From the NCBI GenBank assembly GCA_026391695.1, contig JAPLDP010000037.1:62001-126000 (forward strand): 64,000 nt of DNA, read 5' to 3'. Source of the DNA: Bacteroidota bacterium. GTDB lineage: Bacteria > Bacteroidota > Bacteroidia > Bacteroidales > JAGONC01. The notes beneath the pieces were generated by a model. The model did no database searches. It had not been told where the DNA came from and saw only the letters and a program-made list of their open reading frames with translations. Every line of letters starts with the position of its first letter. Position 1 is the stretch's first letter. The position numbers were made by a program, and so were the translations under genes. This document shows, piece by piece, positions 28,897-33,665 of the stretch.

Positions 28897-29934
28897 TTAA
28901 GCGTCAAATATTTTTGCCCATTCCCATTTGCGGCGATTTTTCCATGTTCCTTTATGATAACAATAACTAAATATAAGAGGCAGGACAGTAGTAGCTTCTG
29001 CAAAGACCATCTGTTCATATACGGTATCCACTTTACCCCATGATGAGGCCTCCTTAAGTGTCGAACTGGAACAGGCTCCGTCACGGGCATCAGCAACAGT
29101 TATTTGGACAGCATACTTATGCATGGGTACATTAAAACCAAGAACTTCAGCACAAACAACTGTATCCTGGGCAAAGTTTTTAGGCACTCCCCCTCCGACC
29201 ATAAACAAACCTGTACTCTGTGCTTTCATCTTGATTTTAGTCAGCTCCAAAAAATCCCTGACCGAATCAATGGTAACATGTTTATCAGGATTTTCCCACT
29301 GATGCTTGACTAAACCAAAACCTGCACTGCTATCGATAAATGCCGGGCAGAAGATGGGGACATTATTTTCAAAAGCAGCCTGTACCAGGGAGTCCTTTTT
29401 TTTCGAATATCTTACCAGGAAACGTCCCATTTCCCTGATAAATTCACGTGAAGAATAGGGTTTTGGCTCGAGAACTTCAGCTATTTTTTGAATCGCACTG
29501 TCGCACATTTGCAATTCTTCTTCATCAATATAGGTATCATAAATCCTGTCGATATATAATTCTCTCAGCGTCTTATCATTGACAAAAGGAGAACCTTTAT
29601 AATGTTTGAAACCCAATGCCTCAAAGAAATCCATGTCAACTATGGATGCTCCTGTTGCAACGATCACATCGATCATGTTATTTTTCACCAAATCCACATA
29701 TACCTGCATACAACCGGCAGCGCTGGTGCTTCCTGCCAGTGTAAGGATGACTGTGCAATCCTTATCGTCCAGCATCCGTTCAAAAATGTCAGCCGCAGAA
29801 GCTGTATCGCGGGATGAGAAGCCCATGTCGCGCATGGCAACGATAATAGGTGTGGCATCAAAAGACTTAATGTCAATGTGTTTGATAGTTTCTTTCAGAA
29901 AAAATTTCTTTTCTTTCGTCATGTGAATTTTCAT
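28897..29934 (-). CDS. deoxyhypusine synthase-like protein (probable polyamine aminobutyltransferase)
   Basis: 345 residues of the deoxyhypusine synthase superfamily. NAD-binding and active-site features: AGSTSAAG (~67-74), VATGASIVDMD (~92-102), the VGGGVPKNF loop (~246-254), DARDGACSSST and the catalytic-lysine motif EASSWGK (K301). Bacteria lack eIF5A, so the substrate is not a hypusine precursor; bacterial homologues make homospermidine or spermidine-like products from putrescine using the same aminobutyl transfer. It is three bases after agmatinase in an operon that makes putrescine from arginine, which supports a role as the next step. ATG at 29934; an alternative ATG lies four codons on. 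Confidence 0.85.
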   Translation of the reverse strand: MKIHMTKEKKFFLKETIKHIDIKSFDATPIIVAMRDMGFSSRDTASAADIFERMLDDKDCTVILTLAGSTSAAGCMQVYVDLVKNNMIDVIVATGASIVDMDFFEALGFKHYKGSPFVNDKTLRELYIDRIYDTYIDEEELQMCDSAIQKIAEVLEPKPYSSREFIREMGRFLVRYSKKKDSLVQAAFENNVPIFCPAFIDSSAGFGLVKHQWENPDKHVTIDSVRDFLELTKIKMKAQSTGLFMVGGGVPKNFAQDTVVCAEVLGFNVPMHKYAVQITVADARDGACSSSTLKEASSWGKVDTVYEQMVFAEATTVLPLIFSYCYHKGTWKNRRKWEWAKIFDA

Positions 29935-29937
29935 TTT

Positions 29938-30780
29938 TCAAAGACAGAACTTATAGCTAAGCATTTTATATACGAGTTTTGCAGCAAGAAAATCAGAAGA
30001 TTTATTAGCAGGATTGGGGCATAGTTCAACAACATCAAAGCCTACAACATTTAGCGATTCATTAACTTTCCTGAGAAGGGTGATCATCTGATAATATTCC
30101 AATCCGCCTGGTTCCGGTGTACCTGTGGAAGAAAGGACTGACGGATCAAATACATCAAGGTCAAGGGTGATGTAAACATTTTTTGAAAGCTGACCTATGA
30201 CGTCATTCATCCATTCACTCCGGTCATAGAGATCTTTGGCAAAAAACACATGGTGTCCAGTCATAAATGGTTTTTCATCCACATCCATACTTCTTATACC
30301 AACCTGCACATAGGGGCATATTTCTCTTACCCTGGCCATCACACAAGCATGGTTGTAAATGCTGCCTTCGTATTCGTGACGGATGTCGGCATGAGCATCC
30401 AGTTGCAGAACACTGAAATCGGAAAATGATTCAGCATGGGCGATAATTGAACCAATACTGACGGAATGTTCTCCACCAAGAGTCACCACAAATTTCCCAG
30501 ACTTAATATAGTTATTCACCAACTTGTATACTGAATGCACCATTTTTTTGGGAGTGCTATCGTGACTTATAGGATCAGAAGTATAAATACCAAACCGAAA
30601 GACCTCACTATCGGTTTCAATGTCATATAATTCCATATTTGCTGATGCTTCGATGATAGCTTCCGGACCTTTATCAGATCCTTTGATCCAGGTACTTGTT
30701 TTATCGTATGGAACAGGTAATACTACAATGCGCGATGTTTCCAGTCGCGAAAATTCATCTGGAATACCAGCAAAATTCAT
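29938..30780 (-). CDS. speB: agmatinase (ureohydrolase family)
   Basis: 280 residues. Binuclear manganese-site motifs are complete: GGEHSVSIG (H105), LDAHADIRHEYEG (D128, H130, D132) and TLDLDVFDPS (D207, D209), then GTPEPGGL. Agmatinase hydrolyses agmatine to putrescine and urea. It sits between the arginine decarboxylase gene (11 bases upstream) and the deoxyhypusine-synthase-like gene (3 bases downstream). That context favours agmatinase over formiminoglutamase or arginase, which share the fold. Confidence 0.93.
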   Translation of the reverse strand: MNFAGIPDEFSRLETSRIVVLPVPYDKTSTWIKGSDKGPEAIIEASANMELYDIETDSEVFRFGIYTSDPISHDSTPKKMVHSVYKLVNNYIKSGKFVVTLGGEHSVSIGSIIAHAESFSDFSVLQLDAHADIRHEYEGSIYNHACVMARVREICPYVQVGIRSMDVDEKPFMTGHHVFFAKDLYDRSEWMNDVIGQLSKNVYITLDLDVFDPSVLSSTGTPEPGGLEYYQMITLLRKVNESLNVVGFDVVELCPNPANKSSDFLAAKLVYKMLSYKFCL

Positions 30781-30791
30781 TGGTATTGTGC

Positions 30792-31409
30792 TTAAATGGA
30801 CTGTTTGAAAATGCTGTCATTACCATTTTTGGATAGCACCGGATAAAGGTAGTTCGTAAAGCAAAGAGCCACCAGTGCTGTACCATACTTTTTCCCTGGA
30901 ATAAATGATTCAGTAATAATTCGTTTTTCTTTCAGGGAATAGTCTTCCTCAAATCCATTGATGTATAATTCATTCAGGCTATCCTTAAGAAGAAGTTCGA
31001 TTTCGTCAGTTGAGTAATTGCCATTATGTTCACACACCAGTCCGCCGAATTTTTCATTACTTCTTCTGTCATAGAGCCAACCCAGGATGATACCGGCGCT
31101 GACGCGTTCACCTTGTAATGAGTTACCGACAGCCATGATGGATTCCATCACAGATCCATGTACAAGGTTTTTAGGTCTTTCGATTTCCTGAGCTATGGCA
31201 GGCATGATAGAAGAATAGGTCATGATATTGACCCGTTCTATTCCGGCGGCACGGAGAGCCAAATGATATGAACCGGCATGAACCGTGATATCACTTTCTC
31301 CGGAACCTTTGGTAACGAAATACTCTCTGGGAATACGATTCCCGATCACCATTCCATTAAGGCCATTTACCTTCGGAAAGGATATTAAAGGTAACGTTTG
31401 AGTAATCAT
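30792..31409 (-). CDS. pdaD: pyruvoyl-dependent arginine decarboxylase
   Basis: 205 residues. Family motifs: GNRIPREYFVTKGSGESDI, AGSYHLALRAAGIE and MTYSSIMPAIA. The Ser-Ser pair S66-S67 is the expected self-cleavage point that yields a beta subunit and a pyruvoyl-capped alpha subunit. The enzyme decarboxylates arginine to agmatine; no PLP is used. First gene of a three-gene polyamine operon (pdaD, speB, DHS-like). The ATG at 31409 has no clear Shine-Dalgarno and is preceded by a leader with extensive predicted structure (31443-31594). Confidence 0.92.
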   Translation of the reverse strand: MITQTLPLISFPKVNGLNGMVIGNRIPREYFVTKGSGESDITVHAGSYHLALRAAGIERVNIMTYSSIMPAIAQEIERPKNLVHGSVMESIMAVGNSLQGERVSAGIILGWLYDRRSNEKFGGLVCEHNGNYSTDEIELLLKDSLNELYINGFEEDYSLKEKRIITESFIPGKKYGTALVALCFTNYLYPVLSKNGNDSIFKQSI

Positions 31410-31442
31410 CTGTGCACATAAAATTAACTTTGTTTGTTAAAA

Positions 31443-31464
31443 GGGTATATTTTCTGGTCTACCC
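31443..31464 (-). terminator. short hairpin followed by U4 in the pdaD leader (possible attenuator)
   Basis: On the minus strand GGGTA pairs with TACCC around a 12-base loop and is followed directly by TTTTAA. It ends 34 bases before the pdaD ATG and lies between the large folded domain and the start codon. It is weak as a terminator (five base pairs, four U). Confidence 0.3.
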
Positions 31465-31477
31465 GTTAACTACCAAC

Positions 31478-31594
31478 GTATATAATTGATTGCCAGATGA
31501 TTACCCAACCATATGTCCTGCCTTTTATCCGTTTTGGCTATGGATGTCGGTTATGTGGCACAACCCTCTGAAAGGCTGGTAACCAATTATATAC
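31478..31594 (-). ncRNA. candidate structured leader RNA upstream of the polyamine operon
   Basis: A 19-bp helix closes a 117-base domain. Minus-strand 31594-31576 pairs with 31496-31478, with one G-U and one A-C. Inside, CCTTT (31575-31571) can pair with AAAGG (31525-31521). That loop holds a 7-bp hairpin (GGTTGTG/CATAACC, 31549-31565) and an ATCC/GGAT stem (31542-31545 with 31527-31530). A CCATA/TATGG pairing (31543-31539 with 31513-31509) offers an alternative or a pseudoknot. The only visible -7 box upstream (31630-31637) would place the whole domain in the pdaD 5' leader. I match it to no known riboswitch. It could instead be a short inverted-repeat (MITE-like) element; no target-site duplication is evident. 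Confidence 0.4.
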
Positions 31595-31629
31595 AATAAA
31601 AAAAGCAAAAACACTTGCTATAAAGTCTG

Positions 31630-31637
31630 CAAAAATA
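31630..31637 (-). promoter_or_regulatory. -7 promoter box of the polyamine operon
   Basis: TATTTTTG followed by CA on the minus strand, exact TAnnTTTG match. It would start a leader of about 210 bases before pdaD that contains the folded domain at 31478-31594. The rest of 31595-31715 is AT-rich with no other signal seen. Confidence 0.4.
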
Positions 31638-31715
31638 AAGGTATTTTTCTATATAATAGTTAAAAAAATATAGAAATAATATTAGAATTTTACTAACAAG
31701 GAATTTGCCAGAGAA

Positions 31716-33665
31716 TTATTGAGCGCCTATTATCTTAAATTCAGTTCTGCGGTTGTGATTTCTACCTTCAGGTGTATCATTGCTGTCGATGGGCTGCGAG
31801 GAACCATATCCCCGGTAATCCAAACGAGATGAAGGAATTCCGCATTTTACCAGAAAATCGTACACTGCCTTGGCTCTTCGCTCAGATAAGTCACTATTAT
31901 AGGATAAATTTCCGACATTATCCGTATGCCCTGAAATTTCGATTTTTAGATTTCGGTTTTCTTCAAGAAAACTGATCAATTTTTGAAGTTCAGATTGTGA
32001 CTCATCTTTGATGTCTGATTTATCAAAATCAAAAAATATATTGTTGAGAACGACCGTCTCGCCAGGTTTCAACGGCTTCAAGGGAATGTCTTTAAAAAAA
32101 GGCGAAAGCTCGGTATTTCTGCCTATCAGGGTAAAATTATCTGAATAAAAAAGATATTTATCTTTTGCCACATGCAGAGAATAGTTTTTATCGGAGGGAA
32201 GGCAGAGAATAAATTCGCCTGTGACAGGATCAGAATTGGATTCCACGAGTGTATCACCTGTTTTCAGATCAATGAGTGTAAAGGATGATCCAAGCCGGAT
32301 ATTCGTTATGGCATCATAAACAACTCCTTTAAGATAAGTCACCGGAACAGGCTTAATACTTGAATCAATGACAAAGCTGTAGATATCACTTTTTCCTGAG
32401 CCTCCTGACATTCCAGATGAAAAATAGGCATTCAGGCCAGTTGCATCAATAATGATATTGATTTCATCGGCCCACGTGTTGAGAGGATACCCAAGATTGA
32501 CCGGCATTGACCACTCCCCTTTAACATCTTTCCGTGAAATAAACAGGTCATATCCACCCATTCCCATATGCCCCCTGGAAGAGAAATAAAGAGTTTGCCC
32601 GTCGGGATGGATGTATGGTGCCATCTCATCCTCTGAAGTATTGACAAGATCACCAAGATTTTCAGGTCGACTCCATTTCCCGTCAGGTTGTATGGTTGAT
32701 TTCCAAATATCTGATTTTCCTATACCTCCTTTTCGAGTACTACAAAAATAGAGAGTTCGTCCATCTGAAGAGAAACAAGGTTGTGATTCCCAGGTAGAAG
32801 AATTTATGACGGGACCCAGGTTTTGGGAAGTTGTCCACCCCTCTCCAACCTTTTTACTGAAATACAAATCGCAACTTCCATAACCATCATCCCTGTTACA
32901 GGCAGCAAAAAATATATATTTACCATCAGGAGAAATACATAAAGCCCCTTCATTATCGATTGTATTTACAGACGGTCCCAGCGACGTGGCCTTTCTCCAG
33001 AAACCGGCATCATTTTCAGATACATAAAAATCCTCATTAACCACATAGCGATTCGCTTCCCCGGCTATTTGGTCAGGTTTTCTCCTTGTCAGGTATAATT
33101 TTTTCCCATCAACAGTTATAGCGTTGACATATTCATCATCAGGCGTATTAATGCTATCACCCAGGTTCACCGGCTCAAAGACAACCGGATTTTGTTGCAA
33201 TTTAATGGCAAAATCGCAGTCACCAATGTATTTCGCAATAATTGATTTTTTGGCCTGAGAAATTTCCGGATAATTCCGGCATACTGTGAAATGTTCCCTG
33301 GCCTTTTCATATAAACCTGAGCCGAGTTCAAGTTTGCCTATGAGAAGGTAAACTTCCGGATAAAAATCCGGATTTATCCCAATAGCAGCAGTGTAAGCAT
33401 CAATAGCCTTGGCATATTCTTTAAGCTCTGTGTAAATATCACCTAACAGCAGATATGCCTCGACGAATTGCCGGTCAATGGCAATTGCTTCCAAAGCTGA
33501 TTTTTCAGCCTGGAAATAATCAGATGAAATAATATTTTTTCCGGCAAGGCGATAATACTTAATAGCTCGCTTTGAATCTGTTGTCAGGATTTCCTTGTTA
33601 ACCTGGCAATAAACTGGATAGGAGAAATAAAATGCCAGGCAAAATAATATTACAAGGGATTTCAT
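31716..33665 (-). CDS. PorE-like OmpA-family protein (TPR, PD40 propeller, CRD, OmpA)
   Basis: 649 residues. Domain order: signal peptide (1-20), TPR repeats (~30-140, EAYLLLGDIYTELKEYAKAIDAY), a PD40/WD40-like beta propeller (~165-420; ISPDGKYIFFAA, SSDGRTLYFCST, HPDGQTLYFSSRG), a carboxypeptidase-regulatory-like fold (~430-525), and an OmpA-like peptidoglycan-binding domain (~530-649; ISGHTDNVGN, SERRAKAVYDFLV). This is the arrangement of PorE, the T9SS periplasmic protein that ties the machine to peptidoglycan. The signal ends in YPVYCQ, a poor lipobox, whereas PorE is a lipoprotein, and several paralogues of this architecture occur in Bacteroidota. It may therefore be a PorE relative rather than PorE itself. 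ATG at 33665. Confidence 0.82.
   Translation of the reverse strand: MKSLVILFCLAFYFSYPVYCQVNKEILTTDSKRAIKYYRLAGKNIISSDYFQAEKSALEAIAIDRQFVEAYLLLGDIYTELKEYAKAIDAYTAAIGINPDFYPEVYLLIGKLELGSGLYEKAREHFTVCRNYPEISQAKKSIIAKYIGDCDFAIKLQQNPVVFEPVNLGDSINTPDDEYVNAITVDGKKLYLTRRKPDQIAGEANRYVVNEDFYVSENDAGFWRKATSLGPSVNTIDNEGALCISPDGKYIFFAACNRDDGYGSCDLYFSKKVGEGWTTSQNLGPVINSSTWESQPCFSSDGRTLYFCSTRKGGIGKSDIWKSTIQPDGKWSRPENLGDLVNTSEDEMAPYIHPDGQTLYFSSRGHMGMGGYDLFISRKDVKGEWSMPVNLGYPLNTWADEINIIIDATGLNAYFSSGMSGGSGKSDIYSFVIDSSIKPVPVTYLKGVVYDAITNIRLGSSFTLIDLKTGDTLVESNSDPVTGEFILCLPSDKNYSLHVAKDKYLFYSDNFTLIGRNTELSPFFKDIPLKPLKPGETVVLNNIFFDFDKSDIKDESQSELQKLISFLEENRNLKIEISGHTDNVGNLSYNSDLSERRAKAVYDFLVKCGIPSSRLDYRGYGSSQPIDSNDTPEGRNHNRRTEFKIIGAQ

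Follow-up and report, generated by a model that had tools for sequence, protein, structure and literature searches.

The locus raises the question of whether the long leader of pdaD, which a preliminary description took for a riboswitch-like RNA, can control the polyamine operon behind it, and by what means.

Genomic context of the pdaD operon

In the window, that is, the whole 64-kb stretch of DNA analysed, the minus strand carries, in this order, an OmpA/TPR/PD40 gene (31716-33665), a 306-bp gap, pdaD, speB, a deoxyhypusine-synthase-like (DHS-like) gene and thrS. The genes of polyamine synthesis are the following.

30792..31409, minus strand: pdaD, pyruvoyl-dependent arginine decarboxylase (PF01862)
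29938..30780, minus strand: speB, agmatinase family ureohydrolase (TIGR01230, above cut-off)
28897..29934, minus strand: DHS-like gene of the 1,9-bis(guanidino)-5-aza-nonane (caldomycin) synthase type (NF002699, above cut-off)

In the Thermus route, arginine is converted to agmatine, two agmatines are coupled to caldomycin, and hydrolysis yields homospermidine (PMC10981699). Since the DHS-like gene scores 588 bits, above the 500 required for the NCBIfam family of 1,9-bis(guanidino)-5-aza-nonane synthase, the operon probably yields homospermidine from agmatine. The likely route encoded by the operon, assigned by protein family and known here from the genes alone, leads from arginine to agmatine and from two agmatines through caldomycin to homospermidine.

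pdaD, often together with speB and a DHS-like gene, was also found in metagenome-assembled genomes of Bacteroidota, Deltaproteobacteria, Spirochaetes, Patescibacteria and several archaeal groups, a scattered occurrence that suggests frequent transfer. In the sister genus (three genomes), the OmpA gene is followed by a gap of ~100 bp, speB and the DHS-like gene, with neither pdaD nor the leader; pdaD, speB and the DHS-like gene are all missing from a third genus of the family. Across the sister genus and the third genus, pdaD and the leader are thus co-present or co-absent.

Promoter and 5' end of the leader

31630..31637, minus strand: putative promoter -7 box TATTTTTG (exact match to TAnnTTTG; no good -33 box)
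31597..31620, minus strand: A/T-rich hairpin followed by seven U (AGCAAGTGTTTTTGCTTTTTTT), at the leader 5' end (sequence and folds)

The -7 box proposed earlier at 31630-31637 matches TAnnTTTG exactly, although its -33 region is poor. A promoter position in the gap is supported because an exact TAnnTTTG also lies between the OmpA gene and speB in the three sister genomes. From these sequences we infer that the leader is transcribed from the -7 box without a -33 box. The A/T-rich hairpin with its seven U is possibly the end of the OmpA transcript; the terminator scan made no call at 31597-31620. TAnnTTTG stands 41-64 nt upstream of pdaD in 22 of 51 leaders, typical leaders being short. In the window, the box lies 228 nt upstream, and ~170 nt containing helix A and the 5' strand of helix B (both described below) are situated between the promoter and a conserved pdaD element.

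A long inverted repeat in the leader

31576..31594, minus strand: helix A, 5' strand (inverted repeat)
31478..31496, minus strand: helix A, 3' strand (inverted repeat)
31497..31575, minus strand: core between the helix A strands, 79 nt, inner fold uncertain (folds)
31439..31464, minus strand: weak 5-bp hairpin GGGTA/TACCC with a 12-nt loop, plus U4 (sequence)

The 19-bp helix reported in the preliminary description between 31478-31496 and 31576-31594 was confirmed on the minus strand in the claimed orientation, with 17 Watson-Crick pairs, one G-U and one A-C, and lies within the 306-bp OmpA-pdaD gap. It is the sole repeat of its class (arms of 18, at most two non-Watson-Crick pairs, span 70-200) in the 64-kb window, and such a repeat arose in one of 500 dinucleotide shuffles of the intergenic gap. 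In a sample of 464 kb from the same genome, ~14 repeats of this class occur, most of them between genes; helix A by itself is therefore unusual rather than unique, and is suggestive rather than decisive.

The complementary letters of the inner stems described before, CCTTT/AAAGG (6 bp), a 7-bp hairpin and ATCC/GGAT, are all present, but their combination is suboptimal: the fold built from them has an energy of -29.8 kcal/mol, against -35.2 kcal/mol for the optimum of this domain, which uses other inner pairs (a difference of 5.4 kcal/mol). The hairpin plus U4, taken earlier for an expression platform, comprises only five pairs around its 12-nt loop, is absent from the terminator-scan output and is a weak candidate for that role.

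A second helix is predicted to mask the pdaD start codon

31491..31507, minus strand: helix B, 5' (masking) strand, of which 31491-31496 is common with helix A (complementarity)
31399..31416, minus strand: helix B, 3' strand, which holds the pdaD ATG (31409-31407) (complementarity)

A pairing overlooked in the preliminary description joins 31507-31491 to 31416-31399 in 17 bp with one bulge. The energy of this complementarity to the start codon is -27.4 kcal/mol, compared with -14.0 ± 2.4 (minimum -24.5) for shuffled sequences; none of 2000 dinucleotide shuffles of the leader reached it, and a Gumbel estimate gave 8e-4. It ranks first among the 286 genes sampled from the same genome, and no other tested pdaD locus reaches its z of -6.3, the next being at -4.0. 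At a Calditrichia locus (L063), the region of the pdaD start (ATG 4932) likewise has a strong complement upstream (-29.2 kcal/mol, z -4.0), but this locus was rejected as a relative of the window leader, with which it has no sequence in common.

Energies calculated from a single sequence are unreliable over 200 nt, and the fold evidence consists of free, enforced and growing-transcript folds together, the energies obtained by forbidding a helix having been discarded because the constraint removed other pairs as well. In the full fold, the pdaD AUG is paired with probability 1.0, and its unpaired probability, 0 in that fold, rises to 0.44-0.56 when the domain is left out. In folds of the growing transcript, helix A is dominant (0.7-0.96) until ~31421 and is then displaced, helix B being complete once the start region is transcribed. 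An exchange of pairing is therefore predicted, in which helix B takes over the 6 nt common with helix A and covers the AUG. The geometry would also allow helix B and the outer 13 pairs of helix A to coexist as a pseudoknot, an arrangement outside the scored folds.

Translation initiation in Bacteroidetes is independent of Shine-Dalgarno (SD) pairing and sensitive to structure, and in Prevotella a structure of -5.2 kcal/mol at the initiation region lowered expression five-fold (PMC3155529). As a separate observation, a direct near-repeat, TTGCCAGATGATTA (31490-31503) and TTGCCAGAGAATTA (31705-31718), has its second copy touching the stop codon of the OmpA gene; it may be a clue to where the masking strand came from, or a coincidence.

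A conserved element with an upstream AUG precedes most Bacteroidota pdaD genes

31407..31440, minus strand: Bacteroidota pdaD 5' element (TTAACaAA...TTTTATG...G-ATG) (comparison of pdaD upstream sequences)
31357..31419, minus strand: upstream ORF MCTDDYSNVTFNILSEGKWP*, overlapping pdaD out of frame, ATG 31419-31417 (sequence)

Comparison of pdaD upstream sequences revealed an element absent from the preliminary description, consisting of TTAACCAA, a short spacer and TTTATG, with the pdaD ATG 9-19 nt further on, which most Bacteroidota pdaD genes in the comparison carry. In the window it reads TTAACAAA, TTTTATG and 10 nt to the pdaD ATG. The upstream ATG stands there as TTTTATGTGCACAG-ATG, out of frame, within the TTTATG spacing of 9-19 nt and without extending the protein. 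The upstream AUG lies at the edge of helix B and is predicted to be unpaired with a probability of 0.9.

An extra ATG 5-20 nt upstream is present at 37 of 52 distinct Bacteroidota pdaD starts, compared with 25 of 318 control genes (other genes of the same loci); Fisher's test on these full counts gives 1.7e-22, a value that overstates the evidence since related genomes are non-independent. The upstream ATGs of three loci (L083, L087 and L172) are in frame and were rejected as mini-ORFs, being probably the true starts; leaving them out gives 34 of 49. A T immediately precedes the upstream ATG in 32 of 32 aligned cases, and TTATG occurs at the upstream position in 28 of 79 distinct pdaD loci from all phyla and in 2 of 119 control genes. 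The mini-ORF stops before pdaD in 17 cases (M*, MT*, MS*, ML*, MR*, MRSN*) and overlaps pdaD out of frame in another 17.

Across 393 genomes, the strict motif TTAACCAA-TTTATG-ATG occurs at 23 sites, seven of them directly at pdaD. An eighth, identical in sequence to one of the seven, belongs to a pdaD genome in which the contig is broken at pdaD, and the other 15 are scattered, at about the level of the reversed-pattern control. The element-bearing loci besides the window are among L010-L015, L029-L108 and L155-L177, and the element is perhaps the more general discovery. Literature searches on bacterial minimal upstream ORFs and on riboswitches with pyruvoyl-dependent arginine decarboxylases yielded nothing on the pdaD element.

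Search for relatives of the leader domain

The preliminary description took a lack of conservation and covariation upstream of pdaD homologues as evidence against its riboswitch-like reading, and for the 117-base domain neither was found at the pdaD homologues searched. In 393 genomes of the order, taken to be Bacteroidales, there was no homologue of the domain; the matches to the leader (24-34 nt, E about 1e-5 to 1e-3) lie almost without exception at the A/T-rich 5' end of the query and never cover more, and they were not accepted as relatives. No match to the domain was found in 395 genomes of the phylum, in phage, plasmid and viral collections, or, by blastn or covariance model, in 80 pdaD loci of named genomes and further loci of the order. 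A single-sequence covariance model of the domain found only itself in 91 sources and 60 whole genomes, and a match at E 6.4 among 30 further sources, which lies in a stretch sampled from the genome under study, was regarded as chance. An inverted repeat with similar letters at another locus (L135) is coding and unrelated.

These collections represent the own genus by one genome, and the closest pdaD in them is only ~72% identical. The domain formed by helices A and B (A/B domain) is either young or outside the sequences sampled so far. Without relatives in anything searched, there is no covariation and hence no proof of selection on the A/B domain.

The possibility that the domain is a mobile repeat (MITE), with multiple genomic copies and target-site duplications, was not borne out, the domain being single-copy in the genome; an apparent second copy (C19, 26034-26058) is a chance 25-mer within the coding region of a large gene. 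No Rfam family matches the leader. At the gathering score, Rfam returned only tRNAs in the window, and at E up to 10 the leader gave four weak matches, none of them to a riboswitch or the SAM family. With neither an Rfam match nor relatives of the domain, assignment to a known riboswitch class is unsupported.

Alternative origins and functions of the leader

The main rival explanation, in our view doubtful, supposes that an inverted duplication arose recently and has no regulatory role, a fold-back event having copied the pdaD 5' UTR and start, inverted, into the leader. The complementarity would then be a by-product, and poor expression of pdaD may be the result. Consistent with such an event, plus strand 31478-31508 (GTATATAATTGATTGCCAGATGATTACCCAA) reads as UTR followed by ATG ATT ACC CAA (MITQ) and amounts to an inverted near-copy of the helix A 5' strand fused with the pdaD start; few positions distinguish the arms, and no relatives appeared in the searches, as expected for a young accident. 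However, the pdaD reading frame is intact and retains the residues conserved in its relatives, so the gene is probably expressed, and the source sequence is non-contiguous in this genome, so that one step of simple fold-back cannot give the arrangement. Of the three substitutions that separate the arms, two retain pairing as G-U, which argues weakly in the same direction. An inverted duplication would explain why the domain is a singleton and would still be compatible with function.

A different and unlikely reading places the control in the mini-ORF itself: Bacteroidota pdaD genes may be governed by a conserved polyamine- or arginine-sensing micro-ORF, often AUG-stop or AUG-one codon-stop, placed a few nucleotides upstream of the gene in a phylum that does not use Shine-Dalgarno initiation, and to this the window would add a young start-masking RNA switch.

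A true metabolite riboswitch, in which the helix A core binds arginine, agmatine, caldomycin or homospermidine and thereby shifts the balance of helices A and B, appears quite improbable. The competition of the two helices with a 79-nt core inside helix A, the polyamine genes downstream and the occurrence of spermidine riboswitches before speB in other bacteria (PMC10853860) would fit such a sensor. Nevertheless, the leader has no Rfam riboswitch match even at E 10, no conserved core appeared in any relative searched, and the inner fold is unstable and ambiguous. The ligands proposed in the preliminary description from the downstream genes are accordingly putative.

A DNA-level element, either a repeated-box operator for a transcription factor, as the four wTGrTTrCcCA-like boxes in the leader (31585, 31487, 31498 and 31408) might suggest, or an invertible segment between the helix A arms, short invertible segments between inverted repeats being common in Bacteroidales, is highly improbable, given that one box is the pdaD coding start with codons common to its relatives, that the spacer has no exact TAnnTTTG on the coding strand, and that the repeats are imperfect; only one orientation is visible, as a single assembly would show in any case.

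Proposed mechanism and comparison with known systems

The reading we prefer, to which we give an even chance, is that the leader controls translation of the arginine-agmatine-homospermidine operon in cis, a lineage-specific switch having been placed on a conserved mini-ORF element. What is supported of the earlier proposal, and more strongly than it stated, is a structured leader that could control pdaD, through the predicted start-masking 17-bp helix; the riboswitch label is unsupported. In the proposed mechanism, helix A is predicted to prevail while the leader is still being made. As soon as the pdaD start has emerged, helix B would replace at least the inner part of helix A and bury the AUG, probably keeping pdaD translation low in a phylum that initiates without SD pairing. 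Relief might come from a metabolite, a protein or slow transcription that stabilises helix A together with its core, or from ribosomes on the upstream mini-ORF that melt helix B, as with orf34 and speF in Salmonella. The A/B domain (~170 nt) would be a recent lineage-specific addition between the promoter and the older mini-ORF element. The complementarity, its rarity and the conservation of the upstream AUG are established here by computation, and from them we infer masking in the cell, its relief and translation of the mini-ORF. A start masked permanently would be a defect and not a switch, unless something relieves the masking.

By analogy, the speF/orf34 leader is the nearest working precedent. 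In Salmonella, a helix that keeps the speF start inaccessible is opened when orf34 is translated, as established with compensatory mutations (PMC6386406). Both leaders precede a polyamine gene, contain an upstream ORF and can form alternative structures and a long-range helix over the start of the decarboxylase gene, and the placing of an upstream ORF beside a start-sequestering helix has its counterpart in the predicted unpaired AUG at 31419, at the helix B edge. In Salmonella, however, the helix forms between orf34 itself and the ribosome-binding site of speF, which are several hundred nt apart, and the system also involves ornithine, arginine and Rho. In the window, the masking strand precedes the mini-ORF, which overlaps pdaD, and an SD sequence is absent. 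The window leader is likened to speF by arrangement and not by sequence relation, and is not counted as a member.

The spermidine riboswitch, a SAM-I variant, also occupies leaders upstream of polyamine genes including speB (PMC10853860). It has a SAM-I-type aptamer and acts on transcription termination, whereas the window leader has no SAM-type match up to E 10 and its start codon is predicted to be masked instead. In translational riboswitches and similar leaders, two helices compete, one of them over the initiation region. The window differs from these in that the start codon and not an SD sequence is covered, and in that no conserved sensor domain was found in the sequences searched, which include no close pdaD relatives. 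Start-stop or minimal upstream ORFs are known from eukaryotic uORF control, and many Bacteroidota pdaD leaders resemble them, with M*, MT*, MS*, ML* or MR* just upstream, but the Bacteroidota mini-ORFs are bacterial, without scanning ribosomes, and their control function is putative.

Significance

Little is known about translational regulation without SD pairing in Bacteroidota, or about regulation of the arginine-agmatine-homospermidine route. A masked start codon beside a conserved upstream AUG would form a compact system that is testable with reporters, and since the mini-ORF element is common to many genera, one experiment would be informative for many organisms. The case further illustrates that a leader can appear riboswitch-like without having any relatives, which bears on how riboswitch claims from single genomes are judged. 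In summary, the predicted start-masking helix and the conserved mini-ORF suggest that polyamine synthesis may be controlled at the ribosome in this bacterium.
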